NCBI GenBank assembly: GCA_029977845.1
Contig: JAPOKC010000010.1
Span: 1-64,000 of the forward strand
Origin: Mycobacteriaceae bacterium
GTDB taxonomy: Bacteria; Actinomycetota; Actinomycetes; Mycobacteriales; Mycobacteriaceae
Direction: 5' to 3'
DNA length: 64,000 nucleotides
The position numbers and the translations under genes were made by a program. Every line of letters begins with the position of its first letter. Position 1 is the first letter of the stretch. The notes under the pieces are model-generated. The model saw nothing but the letters and a program-made list of their open reading frames with translations, searched no databases and was not told the origin of the DNA. Positions 38,909 through 50,252 of this stretch are shown here, piece by piece.

Positions 38909-41080
38909 ATGCCCATCGCGATCGAGTCCGAACACGTCGAACTGGCCGAGTCGGTGAAATCCCTGCTGAAAAAGGTGGTCCCGGCGGAGGTCCTGCACGC
39001 CGCACTGGAAGGCCCGGTCGAGAATCCGCCGGTCTACTGGCGGGGTGCCGTCGAGCAGGGGTTACACGGTCTGCATCTGTCCGAGAAGGTGGACGGCCAG
39101 GGCGCCGGACTGCTGGAACTGGCGGTCGTGATCGCGGAGTTCGGTTATGCCGCCGCGCCCGGCCCGTTCGTTCCCTCGGTGATCGCCGCGGCGCTCATCT
39201 CGGCGCACGACCCGGGTTCGGAGGTGTTGCGCGGGTTCGCCTCCGGGGAGACCATCGCCGCCTACGCACTGGATTCCGATCTCACCGCCGACCGGCACGG
39301 CGAGCGACTGGTGATCCGCGGCGAGGCACGTTCGGTACCGGCCGCCGCGCAGGCCGACGTCCTGGTGCTGCCGGTCGCCATCGACGGCGGCGTCGAGTGG
39401 GCGGTTATCGACGCCTCCGCATGCGAGATCGAACAGCTGCGCTCGGTGGATTTATTGCGACCGGTCGCCCATGTGCGGGCCAACGCCATCGAGATCCGCG
39501 CCGACGCACTGCTGTCGAATCTGTCCCAGGCCGTGGGACGGGCGGTCATCTCCACACTGCTGTCCGCCGAGGCCGTCGGAATCGCGCGGTGGGCCACCGA
39601 CACCGCCTCGGCCTACGCCAAGATCCGCGAGCAGTTCGGCCGGCCGATCGGTCAGTTCCAGGCCATCAAACACAAGTGCGCCGGGATGATCGCGACCACC
39701 GAACGGGCCACCGCCGCGGTGTGGGACGCTGCCCGCGCCCTGGACGAGGGCACCGACTACGAGTTCGCCGCGGCGGTCGCCGCGACACTGGCTCCGGTCG
39801 CCGCGCAGCACTGCGCACAAGACTGCATCCAGGTGCACGGAGGTATCGGTTTCACCTGGGAACACGACACCAACATCTACTACCGGCGCACACTGGCGCT
39901 GGTGGCGGCGTTCGGCCGGGCCGGCGAGTACGCCCAGCGGGTGTTCGACACGGCGACGACCACGGGTATGCGGGCGATCAACATCACCCTTGACCCGGCC
40001 AGCGAGAAATTGCGCGCTGAGATCCGCGCCGAGGTCGATGCTCTGAAGGCCATGCCGCGCGAGGAACGGACCGTCGCCATCGCCGAGGCCGGCTGGGTGC
40101 AGCCACACCTGCCCAGGCCGTGGGGACGGGAGGCGAAACCGATCGAGCAGATCCTGATCGCCCAGGAGTTCTCGGCCGGACGTGTGAAGCGCCCCAACAT
40201 GGGTATCGCCGCCTGGCTGATCCCCTCGATCGTCACCTACGGCACTGAGGAGCAGAAGCAGCGCTTCCTGCCGCCGACGTTCCGCGGCGAACTGATCTGG
40301 TGCCAGCTGTTCTCCGAACCCGGCGCCGGTTCGGACCTTGCCAGCCTGACCACCAAGGCCACCAAGGTCGACGGCGGCTGGCGGATCACCGGACAGAAGA
40401 TCTGGACCACCGCCGCACAGTTCTCCCAATGGGGCGCGCTACTGGCCAGGACGGATCCCGATGCGCCGAAGCACAACGGCATCAGCTACTTCCTGCTCGA
40501 TATGAAGAGCCCAGGCGTAGAAGTCAAGCCACTGCGCGAGCTGACCGGCAACGCGTTGTTCAACACAGTGTTCATCGACGACGTCTTCGTGCCCGATGAG
40601 ATGGTGCTCGGTCAGGTGAACCAGGGCTGGGAGGTCAGCCGTAACACCCTTACCGCGGAGCGGGTCTCGATCGGCAGCGACGAACCCGGCTTCCTGCCGA
40701 ACCTCAACCGCTTCGTCGAGTTCGTCAGCGAGGGCCACTTCGATCAGGTCGGCCACCATCGGGCAGGGGAATTGATCGCCGAGGGACACGCCGCCAAGCT
40801 GCTGAACTTGCGCTCAACACTGCTCACGCTGGCCGGCGGTGACGCGATGCCGTCGGCCGCCATTTCCAAACTGCTCTCGATGCGCACCGGACAGGGTTAC
40901 GCCGAGTTCGCGGTCTCCTCGTTCGGGACCGACGGAGCCATCTGGGAGCAAGACTCCCTCGAAGGAAAATGGGCGGAGTTCCTGCTCGCCAGCCGGGCCA
41001 CCACGATCTACGGTGGCACGTCGGAGGTTCAGCTCAACATCATCGCCGAACGTCTGCTCGGACTGCCCCGCGATCCCTAG
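38909..41080 (+). CDS. Fused double acyl-CoA dehydrogenase (two ACAD domains)
   Basis: 723 aa; N-half has VHGGIGFTWEHDTNIYYRR; C-half has CQLFSEPGAGSDLASLTTKA...GQKIWTTAAQFSQWG...TTIYGGTSEVQLNIIAERLLGLPRDP. Confidence 0.92.
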   Translation: MPIAIESEHVELAESVKSLLKKVVPAEVLHAALEGPVENPPVYWRGAVEQGLHGLHLSEKVDGQGAGLLELAVVIAEFGYAAAPGPFVPSVIAAALISAHDPGSEVLRGFASGETIAAYALDSDLTADRHGERLVIRGEARSVPAAAQADVLVLPVAIDGGVEWAVIDASACEIEQLRSVDLLRPVAHVRANAIEIRADALLSNLSQAVGRAVISTLLSAEAVGIARWATDTASAYAKIREQFGRPIGQFQAIKHKCAGMIATTERATAAVWDAARALDEGTDYEFAAAVAATLAPVAAQHCAQDCIQVHGGIGFTWEHDTNIYYRRTLALVAAFGRAGEYAQRVFDTATTTGMRAINITLDPASEKLRAEIRAEVDALKAMPREERTVAIAEAGWVQPHLPRPWGREAKPIEQILIAQEFSAGRVKRPNMGIAAWLIPSIVTYGTEEQKQRFLPPTFRGELIWCQLFSEPGAGSDLASLTTKATKVDGGWRITGQKIWTTAAQFSQWGALLARTDPDAPKHNGISYFLLDMKSPGVEVKPLRELTGNALFNTVFIDDVFVPDEMVLGQVNQGWEVSRNTLTAERVSIGSDEPGFLPNLNRFVEFVSEGHFDQVGHHRAGELIAEGHAAKLLNLRSTLLTLAGGDAMPSAAISKLLSMRTGQGYAEFAVSSFGTDGAIWEQDSLEGKWAEFLLASRATTIYGGTSEVQLNIIAERLLGLPRDP

Positions 41081-41163: not shown

Positions 41164-42840
41164 CTACTTCACCTCGATCTGGCGCAACTCACGCTTGAGG
41201 ATCTTGCCGGTCGGGTTGCGCGGCAGTTCGGTCATGAAGATCACCTCGCGCGGAACCTTGTAGCGCGCGAGGTGGTCGCGGACGTAGTCCTTGATCGTCT
41301 CTTCGGTGAGCTCCACACCGTCCTTGGGTACGACGAAGGCGCGCAGTCGCGCCCCGAAATCCTTGTCCTCCACACCGATTGCTGTCGCCTCGATGACGTC
41401 GGGATGCCCGCTGATGAGATCCTCGACTTCGGCCGGGAAGACGTTCTCGCCGCCGGAGACGATCATCTCGTCGTCGCGGCCGCTGACGTAGAGCAGCCCG
41501 TCGGGGTCGAGATGGCCGACGTCTCCCGAGGACATCAGCCCGTCGATGATCTCCTTGCCGCCGCCGCCGGTGTACCCCTCGAACGGGAAGAAGTTGCCGA
41601 CGAAGATCCGGCCCACCTGCCCGCGCGGCACCTCATTGCCGTGCTCGTCGAGGATCTTGACCTTGACTCCCTTGACCAGTGGACCGACCGTAGCCGGGTT
41701 CTTCGCCAGATCCTGCGGCCGGGCGATCGACACGAACGCGATCTCCGTTGAGCCGTAGAGGTTGTAGACCACCGGTCCGATGTCCTTCAGCGTCCGGCTG
41801 GCCAGTTCGGCACCGAGTTGCGAGCCCGAGACGAAGACGATTCGCAACGACGACAGGTCGGGTTTGGGATTCATGGTCTCGCACACGTCGAGCATCCGTG
41901 ACAGCATCACCGGCACCACCACGACGGCCGTCACCTTGTACCTGGCGACATCCTCGAGCACCTCGGCCGGCTTGAACCGGCGGTGCAGCACCAGCGTGGA
42001 GCCCAGCGTCATCGCGATGGTGGCGTGCAGATAGCCCAGCGCGTGGAACATCGGCGAGGGCAGTGCGGTCACCTCACCGGACTTGAACGGGACGCTGGAC
42101 AGCACCCCGCCCAGCGGTGCCAGGGTGGGCGGTGCGTGGCGATTGGCGCCCTTGGGCGTCCCGGTGGTTCCGCTGGTGAGGATGATGATCGACGAGCGTT
42201 TGGTCGCCTTGGGGGCGGGTTCGCGGCTGCTGCGATCGATCAGTTCGGCCAGCGTCTCGTCGGTGCTCTTCGACGGCTCCGGGCTGTCCGGATTGGTGGC
42301 CAATGCCCGCAGCATGCCCAGCGACGGGTCGGCCATCTTCACCGCGTCGGCGTACTCGTCGTCGTAGATGATCACCCGAGCGCCCTCGCGCTCGGAGACG
42401 TCGCGGATCTGGGGTCCGGAGAACTCGGTGTTGAGCATGATGGTGCGGGCACCCACGCGGGCGCAGGCGTAGTTGGCGATCAGAAACCAGCGGTGGTTGC
42501 GCGCCAGGATCGCCACTCCGTCGCCGCCGGTGACGCCCATCGCCAGCAGTCCGTTGGCGGCCGCGTTGACGGCGTTGTCCAGTTCGGCGTAGGTCATCGA
42601 CCCCTCATCGTCGATGAGGGCAAGACGGTGCGGGGTGCGCCGGGCGTTCAGTGCCGGGATCATGCCGACTTCGCCCCACCGGCGCATGTCGGCGACCATC
42701 GCGGCCAGGTTCTGCGGAGGTTCCAGGCCGAACGCCCCTGAGGCGATCATCTTCTGCAGGTAATGCAGTTCGGCCGATCCGCGTTCAGCGAGTTGCTGCA
42801 CTTTCGCCAGTGCCTGTGCGCCCAGATCCGAGAGGCTCAT
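41164..42840 (-). CDS. fadD2: Acyl-CoA synthetase (FadD2-like)
   Basis: ATG 42840; AMP-binding SIIILTSGTTGTPKGANR; YGSTEIAF; PRNPTGKILKRELRQIEVK. Confidence 0.88.
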   Translation of the reverse strand: MSLSDLGAQALAKVQQLAERGSAELHYLQKMIASGAFGLEPPQNLAAMVADMRRWGEVGMIPALNARRTPHRLALIDDEGSMTYAELDNAVNAAANGLLAMGVTGGDGVAILARNHRWFLIANYACARVGARTIMLNTEFSGPQIRDVSEREGARVIIYDDEYADAVKMADPSLGMLRALATNPDSPEPSKSTDETLAELIDRSSREPAPKATKRSSIIILTSGTTGTPKGANRHAPPTLAPLGGVLSSVPFKSGEVTALPSPMFHALGYLHATIAMTLGSTLVLHRRFKPAEVLEDVARYKVTAVVVVPVMLSRMLDVCETMNPKPDLSSLRIVFVSGSQLGAELASRTLKDIGPVVYNLYGSTEIAFVSIARPQDLAKNPATVGPLVKGVKVKILDEHGNEVPRGQVGRIFVGNFFPFEGYTGGGGKEIIDGLMSSGDVGHLDPDGLLYVSGRDDEMIVSGGENVFPAEVEDLISGHPDVIEATAIGVEDKDFGARLRAFVVPKDGVELTEETIKDYVRDHLARYKVPREVIFMTELPRNPTGKILKRELRQIEVK

Positions 42841-42870
42841 GAACCGAGCGTAGGTGACTATTCTGGTCCG

Positions 42871-43320
42871 GTGGCATCGATAAGCCGGACCCGTACCGTC
42901 GCCGCACCCGCCGCGGCCGTGTGGGATGTGCTGGCCGACTTCGGTTCGATCAGCTCCTGGGCCGACAACGTCGACCATTCCTGCCTGTTGCAGCACGGTG
43001 ACGACCCGGCCGCGGTAGGCACCACACGCCGGGTGCAGGTGGGCCGCGACACCCTGGTCGAGCGGATAACCGACAGTTCCGCCCCGACCTCGCTGCGCTA
43101 TGCGATCGAGGGCCTGCCCCGGCAACTGGGCCGGGTGGCCAACCGCTGGACGGTGACGCCGTTCGGTGAAAGCACCGCTGTCACCCTCACCACCACCGTG
43201 GACATCGCCGACAACCCGCTGGGACGCATCGCCGAGAAGGCGGCATGCAGGTTCATGGCCCGGCAGTCCGACACCATGCTCGCCGGACTAGCGCAACGAG
43301 TGGAGGAATCACATGAGTGA
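42871..43320 (+). CDS. SRPBCC family protein
   Basis: GTG 42871; ASISRTRTVAAPAAAVWDVLADFGSISSWADNVDHS. Confidence 0.88.
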   Translation: MASISRTRTVAAPAAAVWDVLADFGSISSWADNVDHSCLLQHGDDPAAVGTTRRVQVGRDTLVERITDSSAPTSLRYAIEGLPRQLGRVANRWTVTPFGESTAVTLTTTVDIADNPLGRIAEKAACRFMARQSDTMLAGLAQRVEESHE

Positions 43321-45055
43321 GCGTCCCGACATCGTGATCATCATGACCGACGAGGAACGGGCCATCCCGCCGTATGAGACCGATGACGTGCGCGCCTGGC
43401 GTGAGCGTGTGCTGGTCGGCCGGCGCTGGTTCGACGAGAACGGCGTGAACTTCGTGCGGCACTACACCGGTTCACTGGCCTGTGTGCCGAGCCGCCCGAC
43501 GATATTCACCGGGCAGTACCCGGATCTGCACGGAGTCACTCAGACCGATGGACTCGGCAAGACTGCGGAGGACTCCCGGATGCGCTGGCTGCGCAGCGGC
43601 GAGGTCCCGACGCTCGGAAACTGGTTCACCGCAGCCGGTTACGACACCCACTACGACGGCAAGTGGCACATCTCGCACGCCGACCTCATCGACCCGTCGA
43701 CCGGTAAGCCGTTGTCCACCAACGACGATGACGGTGTGGCGGACCCGGCGGCGGTGCTGCGCTATCTGGACGCCGACCTGCTGGCCCCCTACGGCTTCTC
43801 CGGCTGGGTCGGCCCGGAACCACACGGCGCGGGCCTGGCCAACAGCGGCGTGCGGCGCGACCCGCTGACCGCGCAACGGGTGGTGGCCTGGCTCACCGAC
43901 CGTTATGCGCGCCGCCGCGCCGGTGATCCCGATGCGCTGCGTCCCTTCCTGCTGGTGGCCAGCTTCGTCAACCCGCACGACATCGTGCTCTTCCCGACCT
44001 GGGCGCTGCGCAGTCCGGTGAAATCCTCGCCGGCCGATCCGCCGCACATCCCGCCGGCTCCGACCGCAGACGAAGACCTGCGCACCAAGCCGGCCGCCCA
44101 GATCGCCTTCCGGGAGACCTATTACTCCGGATACGGTCCCAGCCCGGCAGTCGAGGCGAGCTACCGGCTCTACGCTCAGCGTTATCGGGACCTCTACTAC
44201 CAATTGCACGCCGAGGTCGACTCCCCCATCGATCTGGTTCGGCGCGCGGTCACCGATGGCGGCTCACGAAATGCGGTCCTGGTTCGCACATCCGATCACG
44301 GCGACCTGCTCGGCGCACACGGCGGCCTGCACCAGAAGTGGTTCAACCTCTACGACGAGGCCACCCGGGTGCCGTTCACCATCGTCCGGATCGGCGAACA
44401 CCCCACCACGGCCCGGACTGTCGACGCACCCACCTCGCACGTCGATCTGGTGCCGACATTGCTCGGCGCGGCCGGAGTCGACGTCGAAGCAGTGGGCGCA
44501 CAGCTTCGCGAGACCTTCACCGAGGTCCATCCGCTACCCGGCCGCAATCTCATGCCGGTCGTCGACGGTGGCCCGGCCGAGCTTGATCGCGCGGTCTACC
44601 TGATGACCCGTGACAACGTGCTCGAGGGCGATTCCGGTGCCTCCGCCCTGGGCCGTCAGCTGAAGGCGACCTCGAATCCGCCTGTGCCACTGCGGATCCG
44701 GCTCCCGGCGCACACCGCTGGTAATTTCGAGGGCTTGGTCGTCGAAGTCGACCGGCATCTGTGGAAGCTGGTCCGCAGCTTCGATGATCCTGCGACCTGG
44801 ACCGAACCGGGTGTTCGGCAGCTGGCCGCCAACGGTCCGGGCGGCCACACTTACCGGACCACCCCGCTGGATGACCAGTGGGAGCTCTACGACCTGACCG
44901 ACGACGGATGCGAAGCGGTCAACCGATGGACCGATCCCGACCTGCATGAGTTGCGCGGATACCTGCGGATGCGGCTCAAAGAGGTTCGGGCGAGTTCAGT
45001 TCCCGAGCGCAACAATCCGTGGCCGTACGCGGCCCGCAGATCCGGTCACCGGTGA
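43313..45055 (+). CDS. Sulfatase
   Basis: 580 aa; RPDIVIIMTDEERA, SLACVPSRPTIFTGQYPDLHG (CxPSR), SDHGDLLGAHGGLHQKW. Confidence 0.94.
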   Translation: MSERPDIVIIMTDEERAIPPYETDDVRAWRERVLVGRRWFDENGVNFVRHYTGSLACVPSRPTIFTGQYPDLHGVTQTDGLGKTAEDSRMRWLRSGEVPTLGNWFTAAGYDTHYDGKWHISHADLIDPSTGKPLSTNDDDGVADPAAVLRYLDADLLAPYGFSGWVGPEPHGAGLANSGVRRDPLTAQRVVAWLTDRYARRRAGDPDALRPFLLVASFVNPHDIVLFPTWALRSPVKSSPADPPHIPPAPTADEDLRTKPAAQIAFRETYYSGYGPSPAVEASYRLYAQRYRDLYYQLHAEVDSPIDLVRRAVTDGGSRNAVLVRTSDHGDLLGAHGGLHQKWFNLYDEATRVPFTIVRIGEHPTTARTVDAPTSHVDLVPTLLGAAGVDVEAVGAQLRETFTEVHPLPGRNLMPVVDGGPAELDRAVYLMTRDNVLEGDSGASALGRQLKATSNPPVPLRIRLPAHTAGNFEGLVVEVDRHLWKLVRSFDDPATWTEPGVRQLAANGPGGHTYRTTPLDDQWELYDLTDDGCEAVNRWTDPDLHELRGYLRMRLKEVRASSVPERNNPWPYAARRSGHR

Positions 45056-45882
45056 CCGAGAGCGCCGCTCAGCAACTGTTGGCGGCGATCGAACAGCGCC
45101 TCAGTGGTGACAGCGCGGCGGATCTGGACTCCGCGCTGTCGGCGTTCCGGCATCGCGCCACCGAGTTCGTCCGCCGCTATCACCGGCTGGACATCGACCG
45201 CGAGGTGGGATCGCTGGACACACCGGTGCTCTTCGTGGCCAACCACGGCTTCGGCGGGATCTTCGATCTCAACGTGCTGGCCGCATTCGCCGCCCTGGAA
45301 GACCTCCAGCTCGATCGGCCGGTGACCTTCCTGACCCACCAACTCGCCTGGACGCTGGGCGTCGGCCCGCTGATCGAACATCTCGGCGCCCGCCCCGCCA
45401 GCGAGGAGAGCGCGACGGAGGCCTTCGCCGACGGCCACCACGTGGTGGTCTTCCCGGGCGGCGATATCGACGCCGGCAAGTCGTGGTTGCAGCGCAACGA
45501 GATCGTGTTCGGCGGACGCACCGGCTTCGCGCGGCTGGCCATCGAACAGAGCGTGCCGATCGTGCCGATGGTCACCGCGGGCGCCGGTGAATCCCTGCTC
45601 GTACTCTCCGACGGCAAGCCGCTGGCGAAGGCGCTGCGGCTGGACAAACTGTTGCGGGTCAAGGCCTTTCCGGTCAGCGTCTCCGTGCCGTGGGGTCTCA
45701 ACGTCGGGATGGTCGGCATGGTCCCCTACCTTCCGCTGCCCACCAAGATGGCGACCCGGGTATTGCCCGCGATGACCCCGGAACCCGGCGAGGGTCATGA
45801 GGGTTTCGCAACCAGGGTTCGACAGACGATGCAGGATGCCTTGACCGGGATGACCGCGCACCGGCGACCCGTGCTGGGCTGA
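45052..45882 (+). CDS. PlsC-like lysophospholipid acyltransferase
   Basis: GTG 45052 overlapping sulfatase stop; VLFVANHGFGGIFDLNVL (degenerate NHxxxxD), VVFPGGDIDAGKSW. Confidence 0.82.
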   Translation: MTESAAQQLLAAIEQRLSGDSAADLDSALSAFRHRATEFVRRYHRLDIDREVGSLDTPVLFVANHGFGGIFDLNVLAAFAALEDLQLDRPVTFLTHQLAWTLGVGPLIEHLGARPASEESATEAFADGHHVVVFPGGDIDAGKSWLQRNEIVFGGRTGFARLAIEQSVPIVPMVTAGAGESLLVLSDGKPLAKALRLDKLLRVKAFPVSVSVPWGLNVGMVGMVPYLPLPTKMATRVLPAMTPEPGEGHEGFATRVRQTMQDALTGMTAHRRPVLG

Positions 45883-45928
45883 ACTCACCAGCCGATGTCC
45901 ACATCTTGACTGATCCATCCGTCGCATG

Positions 45929-45942
45929 TGACGATTTCGTCA
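45929..45942. promoter_or_regulatory. Perfect palindrome TGACGATTTCGTCA (site 1)
   Basis: Lies 17 bp after a TTGACT hexamer and 21 bp before the ATG at 45964; identical to site 3. Confidence 0.8.
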
Positions 45943-45963
45943 ACATCAACGTGAAGGCTGGCG

Positions 45964-47094
45964 ATGAGCGAGATCGTGGAGGCCCACAAGGGGCTGCACA
46001 GCGAGCAGGGGGCACTACCCGGGGAGCATCCGGGGCGCTCCCGCAATCCGGTGATCAAGGTGGTCGATCTGGCCTGGCTGGAGTTCGACAAGCCGGACCT
46101 CGACAGCGCAGAGGCCTTCGCCCACGCCTTCGGGTTCCAGACCGCTGCCAAGGACGCCGGCGAAATAAGGCTGCGCGGTACTGATGCGAACGCGCCGTGC
46201 GTGATCATCCGCCGCGGGGCCCAGTCCCGGTTCCGCGGTTTCGCGTTCCGCGCCGGAGACGAGGCCGACCTGATGCGCCTGGCCGCCAAGACCGGCACAT
46301 CCCCCGTCGCACTCCCCGACAGCATCGGCGGTGCGGCGGTCAATCTGGTCGACCCCAGCGGCACTGCGGTCGCGGTGGTCTCAGGTGTCGATGAACTACC
46401 CGCCCTGCCCGGTCAGCAACCGCATGTCTTCAATTTCGGCGAGCAGATCAATCGGGCGAACGCGACGCAGCGGCCACCCCGCTGTCCGGCACGGATCGAA
46501 CGACTCGGCCATGTCGTGCTCTCGTCGACGAAGTACATCGAGAGCCTCAACTGGTATCTCGAGCACTTCGGGCTGATCGTCAGCGACTTCCAGTACTACG
46601 CCGGTCAGCGTGAGCGCGGTCCGACGATGAGTTTCATCCGGTGTGATCGGGGCGCCACCCCGAGTGATCACCACACCCTGGCGATGACGCTGGGACCGGC
46701 CAACCGCTACGTGCATTCGGCCTATCAGATCAGCGATCTCGACGCACTTGCCGCCGGTGGGGAGTATCTGCGCGAACGTGGCTACTTCCGGTCCTGGGGC
46801 ATCGGACGGCACATCCAGGGCAGCCAGATCTTCGACTACTGGCGAGATCCGGACGGTTTCATGGTCGAGCACTACGCCGACGGCGACATGTTCGACAACA
46901 CCGTCGAGACCGGTTGGGCGCCGTTCACCGCCTCCGGTCTGGCGCAGTGGGGTCCGCCCGCGACGAAGGACTTCCTGGGGATCGATCCCAAACACGCGCG
47001 CGAGGAACTCGGCGCGCTCGCGACCGCCCTGCGGGAGCGCAACGAGTTCGACGTCAAACGTTTGATCGGATTGTTGAAGGTGGCCCGCTCATGA
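45964..47094 (+). CDS. Two-domain VOC / extradiol dioxygenase-like protein
   Basis: 376 aa; second domain ERLGHVVLSSTKYIESLNWYLEHFGLIVSD, DHHTLAMTLG, GFMVEHYADGD consistent with an H-H-E metal triad. Confidence 0.88.
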   Translation: MSEIVEAHKGLHSEQGALPGEHPGRSRNPVIKVVDLAWLEFDKPDLDSAEAFAHAFGFQTAAKDAGEIRLRGTDANAPCVIIRRGAQSRFRGFAFRAGDEADLMRLAAKTGTSPVALPDSIGGAAVNLVDPSGTAVAVVSGVDELPALPGQQPHVFNFGEQINRANATQRPPRCPARIERLGHVVLSSTKYIESLNWYLEHFGLIVSDFQYYAGQRERGPTMSFIRCDRGATPSDHHTLAMTLGPANRYVHSAYQISDLDALAAGGEYLRERGYFRSWGIGRHIQGSQIFDYWRDPDGFMVEHYADGDMFDNTVETGWAPFTASGLAQWGPPATKDFLGIDPKHAREELGALATALRERNEFDVKRLIGLLKVARS

Positions 47095-48023
47095 CGATTT
47101 CGGTACTGCGCACGACCGATGGCTGGTGGGTGCAGACTCCCGACGGCGCCCTGAAGGTACAGACCTCGGCCACCACCACCGCTGCCCTCCTCGCCGACCG
47201 CTCGGCGCTCGAGACCGCGACCGGGCCGGCGGTTCCCGTCGAGAGCCTGTCGCTGCTGTCCCCGGTGACCAGGCCGTGCCGAGTCATCGCCCAGATGACC
47301 AACTTCGCCTCGCACGTCAAGGACGCGGGCCTGGATCCCAAGTCCATTCCACTGACCTTCTTCCGCAAGTCCTCGGCATCGATCAGCGGTCCGTTCGATC
47401 CGATCGTCAAACCCGCCCATGTGCGCCTACTCGACTACGAAGTGGAGATCGGCTTGGTGATCGGTCGCGATATCCCTGCCGGCACAACGATTTCTGAGCA
47501 GGATCTTCCCGGCGTCATCGCCGGACTGGTGATCACCGATGACGTCTCGGCCCGGGATATCCAGTTACCGCAGACACAGTTCTACGAGGCGAAGTCCTAT
47601 CCGAGTTTCACCCCGGTCGGTCCGGCACTGGTGCTGCTCGACACGGCCGAACTCGCCAGGTTCGGTCAACTGCGCCTGCGGTTGAGCGTCAACGGCGAAC
47701 AGCGTCAGAACGCCGTCGTCGACGGTGACATGATGTACGGGCCGCTGAAGGCACTGCAGTCACTGATCCGGTTCCAGGACCTGTCCGCCGGCGATCTGAT
47801 CCTGACCGGCACTCCGGTCGGCACTGCGCTCAGCGCCCCGCCCAAGCCCGTCGAGATCATCTCGCGCCTGCTGCCACCGGCGGTGAAATGGAAGGCGTTC
47901 TTCAAGGCTCAGGCGAGCAATCCCAAGTACCTCAAGAACGGCGACGTGGTCGAGGCGTCGGTCCGCACCGACGACGGCGCGATCGACCTCGGCACCCAGC
48001 GGATGACGGTGAAGTACGCGTAA
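47091..48023 (+). CDS. Fumarylacetoacetate hydrolase family protein
   Basis: ATG 47091, 4-bp overlap; LLDYEVEIGLVIGRDIPAGTTIS...VITDDVSARDIQL...LSAGDLILTGTPVGTAL. Confidence 0.92.
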   Translation: MTISVLRTTDGWWVQTPDGALKVQTSATTTAALLADRSALETATGPAVPVESLSLLSPVTRPCRVIAQMTNFASHVKDAGLDPKSIPLTFFRKSSASISGPFDPIVKPAHVRLLDYEVEIGLVIGRDIPAGTTISEQDLPGVIAGLVITDDVSARDIQLPQTQFYEAKSYPSFTPVGPALVLLDTAELARFGQLRLRLSVNGEQRQNAVVDGDMMYGPLKALQSLIRFQDLSAGDLILTGTPVGTALSAPPKPVEIISRLLPPAVKWKAFFKAQASNPKYLKNGDVVEASVRTDDGAIDLGTQRMTVKYA

Positions 48024-48028
48024 ATGCG

Positions 48029-48658
48029 CTAAATACTCGGAAGCGGCCGGATGCAGACCCGGTGGGCATCCCTGGCCGACATCCCGAACATCCGCAGCAG
48101 ATCCTCGGTGACCGCGTCCGTGGTCGCACCGTCCTCGCGATTGGCGTCCCGTTGCAGCAGCGTTCCCAGGCCGAGCAGGATGCCGCTGGCCACCGCCAGT
48201 GCGAGTTCGGGATCCTCGACGGTGAACCGGCCCGCCGCTATCGCCGCCTTGATATCCCGCAGCGCGCGCGGCGCCAGGCCGCGATCCGAGGTCACCAGCG
48301 CCGCCCAATTGGCCAACAGAATGCTGCTCTCCTGAGGGCGGCGCCGGAAGAACCGTCCGGTCAGCCGGAAGCTCGCGGCGAAGGTCTCCGCCGGATCATC
48401 CATACCGATGGTCAGCGCGTCCAGCAGTTCGCCGTAGGAGTCCAGCACATCGGCGACCGCCGCCTCGAAGAGCTGTTCCTTGCTGTCGAAGTGGTTGTAG
48501 AAGGAGCCCATTCCGACGTCGGCGAGTTGAGTGATCTCCAGGACGGGAACGTTGAGCCGGCCCTCGACGATCAGCTGCTGAGCGGCCTTGATCAGCGCGG
48601 AACGCGTTCGTTGCTTACGGCGCTCCAGTCGATTGACCGGTTCCTCGGCCTCTCCCAT
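48029..48658 (-). CDS. TetR family transcriptional regulator
   Basis: ATG 48658 MGEAEEPVNRLERRKQRTRSALIKAAQQL...ITQLADVGMGSFYNHFDSKEQLFEAAV. Confidence 0.9.
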   Translation of the reverse strand: MGEAEEPVNRLERRKQRTRSALIKAAQQLIVEGRLNVPVLEITQLADVGMGSFYNHFDSKEQLFEAAVADVLDSYGELLDALTIGMDDPAETFAASFRLTGRFFRRRPQESSILLANWAALVTSDRGLAPRALRDIKAAIAAGRFTVEDPELALAVASGILLGLGTLLQRDANREDGATTDAVTEDLLRMFGMSARDAHRVCIRPLPSI

Positions 48659-48678
48659 ATCGCGAACTCTATCAGTTC

Positions 48679-48692
48679 TGATGATTTCCTCA
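48679..48692. promoter_or_regulatory. Degenerate palindrome TGATGATTTCCTCA (site 2)
   Basis: 12/14 match to TGACGATTTCGTCA, just upstream of the TetR start. Confidence 0.55.
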
Positions 48693-48722
48693 GAAACTCT
48701 TGACGCCCGCACCGCAAGCATG

Positions 48723-48736
48723 TGACGATTTCGTCA
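48723..48736. promoter_or_regulatory. Perfect palindrome TGACGATTTCGTCA (site 3)
   Basis: Identical to site 1 including flank GCATG (19-bp identity); 17 bp after TTGACG. Confidence 0.8.
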
Positions 48737-48752: not shown

Positions 48753-50252
48753 GTGAGCGAGAACAAGCCGGCCGTGGTGATCATCGGCGCCGGGCCCACC
48801 GGTGTCACCGCGGCCACCCTGCTCGCCCAATACGGGATCGCCACCACGGTTCTGGACCGTTGGCCCGGTGTCTACCCCCAACCGCGGGCCGTGCATCTCG
48901 ACGACGAAGTCCACCGGATCCTGGCACGCCTCGGCATCGGCGAGGAGTTCGCGGCGATCTCCCGGCCCGCGCTCGGTCTTCGTCTGATCGACCCGAAGAT
49001 GCGGGTGCTCGCCGAGTTCCACCGCGACCCCAACCAGCGCCGCAACGGGTATCCGTCGGCCAACATGTTCGACCAACCCGTCCTGGAGGGATTGTTACGG
49101 GACAACCTGGCTCGTTACCCGCGAGTCAACCTGTGCGGGAACGTCGAAGTCACCGATGTCGCGAGTTCGGGCGGACGGACCCGGATCACCTTCACCGATC
49201 GCAATGACCGCACAGAGCAGTTCCTGGACGCCGACTATCTGCTCGGCTGCGACGGGGCCAACAGTCTGGTCCGCGATCGGATCGGCGCGACAATGAAGGA
49301 CCTGCGCTTCGAACAACGCTGGCTGGTGATCGACGTGGCCAGCGAGTGCGAACTCGAACAGTGGGACGGTGTGCACCAGTTGTGCGACTCGGCCCGCGCC
49401 GGAACGTTCATGCGGATCGGTCCGAACCGGTATCGGTGGGAGTTCCGGTTGCTCGACGGCGAGAAGGCCGAGGACTTCCGCGACCTCGCTGCACTGAGTC
49501 CACTCATCGCCCCGTGGACCTCGCGCGTCGATGAGAGCCAACTGGAGATCTTCCGTGTCACCGAGTACACCTTCCGAGCCAAGATCGCCGACCACTGGCG
49601 CAGCGGCAACACGTTCCTGCTCGGCGATGCCGCCCATCTGACTCCGCCGTTCGTCGGCCAGGGCCTGTGCGCGGGACTGCGGGATGCGATGAACCTGTCC
49701 TGGAAACTGGTCGGGGTGATCAACGGCACCCTGGATCCCGCCATGCTGGACACCTACGAGCAGGAGCGTAAGCCGCACGCGCACAGCATGATCGGCCTCG
49801 CACTGATGGTGGGCCGGGCGATGACATCGGGCGGCCGGATCGGCGATATGTTGCGCGGCCTCATCGTGCCTCGGATGCATCTGCTGCCGGGATTGCGCAA
49901 ACGAGTGCTGGACTCCCAGACTCCCCCGCTGTCGCGGGGCCCGCTGGTGCAGGACGCGGGCAAGCTCACCGGGACGCTGTGCCCGAACCCGCCGACGCCC
50001 GACGGGCGACTGCTCGATGACGTTCTCGGCGGCGGATTCGCGATCGTCACCTGCCAACAGCCTTCGGCCGCGGAACTACGTGCAGCGCAGGACCGGGGAG
50101 CGTCGGTCTACGTCACCGATCCCGACGGCGAACTCGGCCAGTGGCTTCTCGGGGGCAGGGTCACCGCGGCGATCGTCCGGCCGGACCGCACGGTGATGCG
50201 CGCCGGTCGGGATCTGTCCGCGCTGTGCGAGTCGATTCCGTCATTGCGGTGA
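48753..50252 (+). CDS. FAD-dependent 3-(3-hydroxyphenyl)propionate hydroxylase-like monooxygenase (MhpA-like)
   Basis: VVIIGAGPTGVTAATLLAQYGIATTVLDR; FLLGDAAHLTPPFVGQGLCAGLRDAMNLSWKL. Confidence 0.92.
   Translation: MSENKPAVVIIGAGPTGVTAATLLAQYGIATTVLDRWPGVYPQPRAVHLDDEVHRILARLGIGEEFAAISRPALGLRLIDPKMRVLAEFHRDPNQRRNGYPSANMFDQPVLEGLLRDNLARYPRVNLCGNVEVTDVASSGGRTRITFTDRNDRTEQFLDADYLLGCDGANSLVRDRIGATMKDLRFEQRWLVIDVASECELEQWDGVHQLCDSARAGTFMRIGPNRYRWEFRLLDGEKAEDFRDLAALSPLIAPWTSRVDESQLEIFRVTEYTFRAKIADHWRSGNTFLLGDAAHLTPPFVGQGLCAGLRDAMNLSWKLVGVINGTLDPAMLDTYEQERKPHAHSMIGLALMVGRAMTSGGRIGDMLRGLIVPRMHLLPGLRKRVLDSQTPPLSRGPLVQDAGKLTGTLCPNPPTPDGRLLDDVLGGGFAIVTCQQPSAAELRAAQDRGASVYVTDPDGELGQWLLGGRVTAAIVRPDRTVMRAGRDLSALCESIPSLR

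Follow-up and report, generated by a model that had tools for sequence, protein, structure and literature searches.

Two catabolic promoters and the start region of a tetR gene in this DNA carry copies of one inverted repeat, to which the RolR-like TetR repressor encoded beside them very probably binds. The repressor would occlude the -10 element of both catabolic promoters, repress its own gene and be released by a phenolic compound; this whole explanation is given a probability of about 0.9. The switch probably serves the breakdown of phenolic, resorcinol-like compounds. The window, that is, the whole 64-kb stretch analysed, belongs to a 2.79-Mb draft genome that is 73% complete. The features concerned are as follows.

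45906 to 45911, + strand: -35 hexamer TTGACT of the VOC-FAH promoter, ending 17 bp before the repeat
45929 to 45942, + strand: predicted operator TGACGATTTCGTCA of the VOC-FAH promoter, overlapping the proposed -10 GACGAT (45930-45935)
45964 to 47094, + strand: VOC-superfamily extradiol-dioxygenase-like protein, 376 aa (Pfam Glyoxalase; PDB 3b59, E 2e-13)
47091 to 48023, + strand: fumarylacetoacetate-hydrolase-family protein (FAH), 310 aa (PF01557, E 9e-43)
48029 to 48658, - strand: RolR-type TetR, predicted repressor, 209 aa (TetR_N and TetR_C_40; ATG at 48656-48658)
48666 to 48671, - strand: proposed tetR -10 TAGAGT, preceded by TGA, as judged from the sequence
48672 to 48692, - strand: predicted tetR-side operator TGAGGAAATCATCA-GAAC-TGA, made up of the 14-bp repeat (48679-48692) and a half-site (48672-48674)
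48700 to 48705, + strand: -35 hexamer TTGACG of the hydroxylase promoter, ending 17 bp before the repeat
48723 to 48736, + strand: predicted operator TGACGATTTCGTCA of the hydroxylase promoter, overlapping the proposed -10 GACGAT (48724-48729)
48753 to 50252, + strand: MhpA-like FAD-dependent aromatic hydroxylase, 499 aa (NCBIfam NF004829; FAD_binding_3)

The repeat and the promoters that carry it

As the initial annotation had stated, the sequence GCATGTGACGATTTCGTCA is present in identical copies at 45924-45942 and 48718-48736 of the window. Its core, TGACGA-TT-TCGTCA, is a 6+2+6 inverted repeat. The description of this core as a perfect 14-bp palindrome has to be corrected: the 6-bp arms are perfect inverted repeats, the TT centre is not self-complementary (the opposite strand reads TGACGAAATCGTCA) and breaks the symmetry, and the palindrome score is 12/14. 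The exact 14-mer is expected about 1e-4 times in the 64-kb window and about 0.004 times in the draft genome. The proposed check of its genome-wide frequency gave two copies in the draft, each at one of the two local promoters, so the motif is not a frequent one; zero-mismatch fits to the full promoter-operator pattern were also confined to these promoters. The draft is incomplete and may therefore lack further TetR proteins or sites. Matches with up to 3 mismatches numbered 20 in the window, against 4.9 expected and a maximum of 13 in 100 shuffles. Contig C71 has a copy with a single mismatch, placed midway along a long open reading frame and lacking a -35 element; it is probably due to chance. 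The 2-mismatch copy at 47092-47105 (ATGACGATTTCGGTA) overlaps the FAH start codon and was treated as chance.

The annotated TTGACT and TTGACG hexamers do end 17 bp before the repeat at both sites. Among orthologues the catabolic promoter consensus is cTTGACtGA-N8-tCGTATG-TGACGATTTCGTCA, and the repeat begins exactly 23 bp after the start of TTGAC at 74/84 VOC promoters, 12/17 hydroxylase promoters and 17/18 promoters of unlinked genes, the last set having been chosen for TTGAC within the upstream 30 bp. We infer that GACGAT inside the repeat is the -10 element of the catabolic promoters, because it fits the xANNNT pattern, is preceded by TGT and leaves an 18-bp spacer. With TTGAC 23 bp upstream in most promoters, the repeat would cover this proposed element.

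The third copy, annotated as TGATGATTTCCTCA at 48679-48692 just upstream of the divergent TetR start, was also found, and its surroundings are organised differently. The tetR-side layout is TGA-N8-TCA-N4-TGA, whereas the catabolic-side sites keep just TGA-N8-TCA. Orthologues keep the third TGA half-site (48672-48674 here, four bases past the repeat) at 94-98% on the tetR side and do not conserve it at their catabolic-side sites. In 71 of 75 two-site intergenic regions the tetR-side repeat lies 42-46 bp from the catabolic-side site (about 44 bp in the window), and TANNNT peaks 17 nt past the tetR-side operator in orthologues (33/105). That a copy lies beside the tetR start speaks for autoregulation.

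Conservation and co-occurrence with the TetR gene

A search for the TetR gave 80 loci in a genome-contig collection and hits in 31 of 61 sampled relatives. In nearly all loci with a placeable target, either the tetR-divergent gene or a separate VOC gene, the arms of the repeat are matched at 12/12, 11/12 or 10/12 positions within about 100 bp upstream of that target. The site precedes orthologous ring-cleavage and hydroxylase genes in Mycobacteriaceae, Nocardiaceae and Pseudonocardiaceae, the conserved promoter sites including those of Antrihabitans, Amycolatopsis and Kutzneria, from other families of the order. Comparison of orthologous promoters, suggested as a check on the initial annotation, thus revealed a motif conserved with fixed -35 spacing. 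In a distant relative (L221), both arms are changed symmetrically (TGATGATGTCATCA). At five loci (L060, L064, L123, L127, L136) the repeat is retained beside the tetR start, though no VOC, FAH or hydroxylase gene was found in the fetched locus.

In the genus, the exact 14-mer is present in 158 of 294 genomes, against one genome for a reversed-pattern control, and the TetR (at E 1e-50) in 198. Site and TetR occur together in 147 genomes, the site alone in 11, TetR alone in 51 and neither in 85 (odds ratio 22, p = 1.7e-25, with counts that ignore phylogeny). Six of the 11 genomes with the site alone were examined; their seven sites are all in apparent coding sequence, and none has TTGAC at promoter spacing. 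Of the 198 genomes with TetR, 51 are without the exact 14-mer; variants differing at 1-2 bases were seen in several of the ones that were examined. Two genomes have a VOC gene with no site upstream of it; one (G022) has no TetR at E 1e-50 and the other (G204) only a distant one (E 1e-51).

The window has a split arrangement, with the hydroxylase gene divergent from tetR and the FAH-VOC genes convergent with it under their own promoter. On the TetR tree, a quick tree with support by SH-aLRT only, split rows form one supported group (24 rows and two whose fetched locus lacks the enzymes). This group is nested within rows that have tetR divergent from VOC-FAH-hydroxylase. By this tree the split operon would have arisen once. 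The two halves of the split operon have one promoter-operator module in common, except in some split rows with a single site in the tetR-hydroxylase gap. A locus on a contig titled as a Bifidobacterium breve MAG (L065), with a TetR 75% identical to that of the window, falls in the mycobacterial split clade and looks misassigned.

A RolR-type regulator and the proposed switch

The window TetR has a TetR_N helix-turn-helix (PF00440, 6e-8, residues 23-67) and is the sole PF21306 protein in the 73% complete draft. Its best PDB match is RolR (3aqs/3aqt, E 1e-30, 35% identity), the resorcinol repressor of Corynebacterium glutamicum, in which D94, R145, R148 and D149 hold resorcinol (PMC3086911). The motif, contact-residue and pocket criteria used here are those of the RolR subfamily proposed in the same study (PMC3086911). 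The recognition-region motif IxxxAxxGxGxFYxxF is present in the window TetR as ITQLADVGMGSFYNHF. All four polar contact residues (RolR numbering) are also present, and each is kept in at least 106 of 108 TetR homologues. In the hydrophobic pocket F107 and L142 are kept, and L111, L114 and F172 are replaced by F, T and S respectively; these three positions are not conserved among the 108 homologues. The inducer may differ from resorcinol, since the pocket differs at these positions.

The C. glutamicum operator rolO consists of TGAAC-N4-GTTCA plus TTCAT-N2-ATGAA, and RolR represses there by a roadblock at +66 to +94 (PMC9210681). The two systems share the TetR_C_40 domain, the helix-turn-helix motif, the four polar inducer-contact residues, a repressor gene adjoining the aromatic-catabolism genes under its control (control being predicted here) and, at the tetR-side site, a layout of TGA-N8-TCA plus TCA-N4-TGA. 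In the original study the rolO repeats reportedly overlap, which would give the same TGA-N8-TCA-N4-TGA layout as the tetR-side site. At the locus of a RolR homologue of 48% identity, a flavin-hydroxylase-like gene is preceded by tandem TGA-N8-TCA repeats at a spacing of 18 bp. The differences lie in the inner bases (TGACGA here, TGAAC in C. glutamicum), in the position over a proposed -10 instead of a downstream roadblock, in the several operators per genome and in the extradiol VOC and FAH enzymes found here. Bidirectional TetR-family operators are also similar, with a repressor divergent from its targets, an operator for each promoter and autoregulation (predicted in the present case), whereas here the module also occurs before a split-off operon and before unlinked P450 genes.

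In the proposed mechanism, TetR dimers would occupy TGACGATTTCGTCA over the -10 elements of the VOC-FAH and hydroxylase promoters in the absence of inducer, and RNA polymerase would be blocked. TetR bound at the TGA-N8-TCA-N4-TGA site beside its own start would lead to self-repression. A phenolic inducer, probably resorcinol-like, would release TetR, upon which the hydroxylase, the ring-cleaving dioxygenase and the hydrolase would be made together.

Binding of the repeat by a different regulator, the adjacent TetR being incidental, could be considered in view of the large number of TetR proteins in mycobacterial genomes and the incompleteness of the draft. It is improbable, as the site co-occurs with TetR of the window type and the VOC genes of G022 and G204 have none; a copy stays beside the tetR start in L060, L064, L123 and L136, where no catabolic genes were found in the fetched locus; and the operator geometry is RolR-like, next to the only PF21306 protein of the draft. 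The TetR could instead be an activator or a dual regulator at these promoters. That is very unlikely, given that an overlap with the proposed -10 puts the site where binding would repress, and that RolR, the closest characterised relative, is a repressor. The fixed TTGAC spacing of the catabolic-side repeat at the -10 would also be expected of a conserved core-promoter motif (-35 and extended -10) that is no operator. However, the dyad symmetry exceeds what a promoter needs, the repeat is found again beside tetR, where the TTGAC-N18 arrangement is missing, the exact 14-mer is nowhere else in the draft genome, and the L221 sites vary symmetrically on both arms, which leaves a pure promoter motif with hardly any likelihood. 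An operator for the RolR-type TetR is the reading favoured by these comparisons.

The proposed wider regulon and its pathway

Forty loci with sites outside the listed TetR places were fetched. The site is located just upstream of a cytochrome P450 gene in 17 of them, all in TetR-bearing genomes. In three loci it is upstream of a divergent zinc alcohol dehydrogenase gene, one of the three being shared with a P450, and in one it precedes an AMP-binding ligase. The local autoregulated TetR circuit put forward in the initial annotation is supported by the co-occurrence and, as to autoregulation, by the copy beside tetR. Two of the outcomes named as refuting it, a motif frequent across the genome and one not conserved before orthologues, did not occur. 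The circuit is not strictly local in the genus, in view of the 17 loci with unlinked P450 genes. Some unlinked P450 promoters (L161, L168, L169, L170, L172, L183) have two repeats about 43-44 bp apart; this is the spacing of the two sites at tetR, and it would keep both on one face of the DNA.

The P450 that was tested resembles CYP199 (E ~1e-76). The best match of the dehydrogenase is a formaldehyde-dehydrogenase model, far below the cut-off of that model. The hydroxylase scores 605 bits against NF004829, above the curated cut-off of 390, while the matches of the VOC protein to HpaD, BphC and HsaC are weak and all below the equivalog cut-offs (best 51 bits vs 321). Beside the VOC operon, 41164-45882 holds genes for a FadD2-like ligase, an SRPBCC protein, a sulfatase and an acyltransferase, and several split-type relatives retain parts of this block. 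At 38909-41080, a 723-aa open reading frame resembles two tandem acyl-CoA dehydrogenases when its translation is inspected by eye.

The enzyme set would suit a route like that of orcinol catabolism, in which a resorcinol-type ring is hydroxylated, the ring is opened by extradiol cleavage and the cleavage product is hydrolysed. Literature searches on the orcinol pathway gave nothing specific, and those on alkylresorcinol, hydroxyquinol and extradiol terms gave no paper on such a cluster. 'Pathway VIII' of Rhodococcus jostii RHA1 has a hydroxylase, an extradiol dioxygenase and a hydrolase in one cluster (PMC6498646). It resembles the present locus in these three enzyme classes, the comparison being by class, and differs, as described, in having acyl-CoA dehydrogenase and AsnC regulator neighbours and no TetR (PMC6498646).

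A more specific and doubtful proposal is that of an undescribed mycobacterial regulon, defined by the operator, for the catabolism of methoxylated or alkylated resorcinol-type phenols. In it the CYP199-like P450 would O-demethylate the substrate, the formaldehyde-dehydrogenase-like enzyme would clear the formaldehyde, and ring opening would fall to the hydroxylase, the VOC dioxygenase and the FAH hydrolase. O-demethylation is a guess here, because the P450 is just CYP199-like and the dehydrogenase match is far below its cut-off. If true, such a regulon would suggest an inducer and a substrate class for an orphan aromatic pathway.

The operator sequence was not found in the literature searched, most subscription papers being outside that search. 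The repeat is very probably an operator of a RolR-type TetR regulon, one of a known kind and apparently new to that literature. The signature TTGAC-N18-TGACGATTTCGTCA predicts members of one catabolic regulon across mycobacteria and ties unlinked P450 genes to the ring-cleavage pathway, and the likeness to RolR points to resorcinol-like compounds as candidate inducers for the enzyme set.
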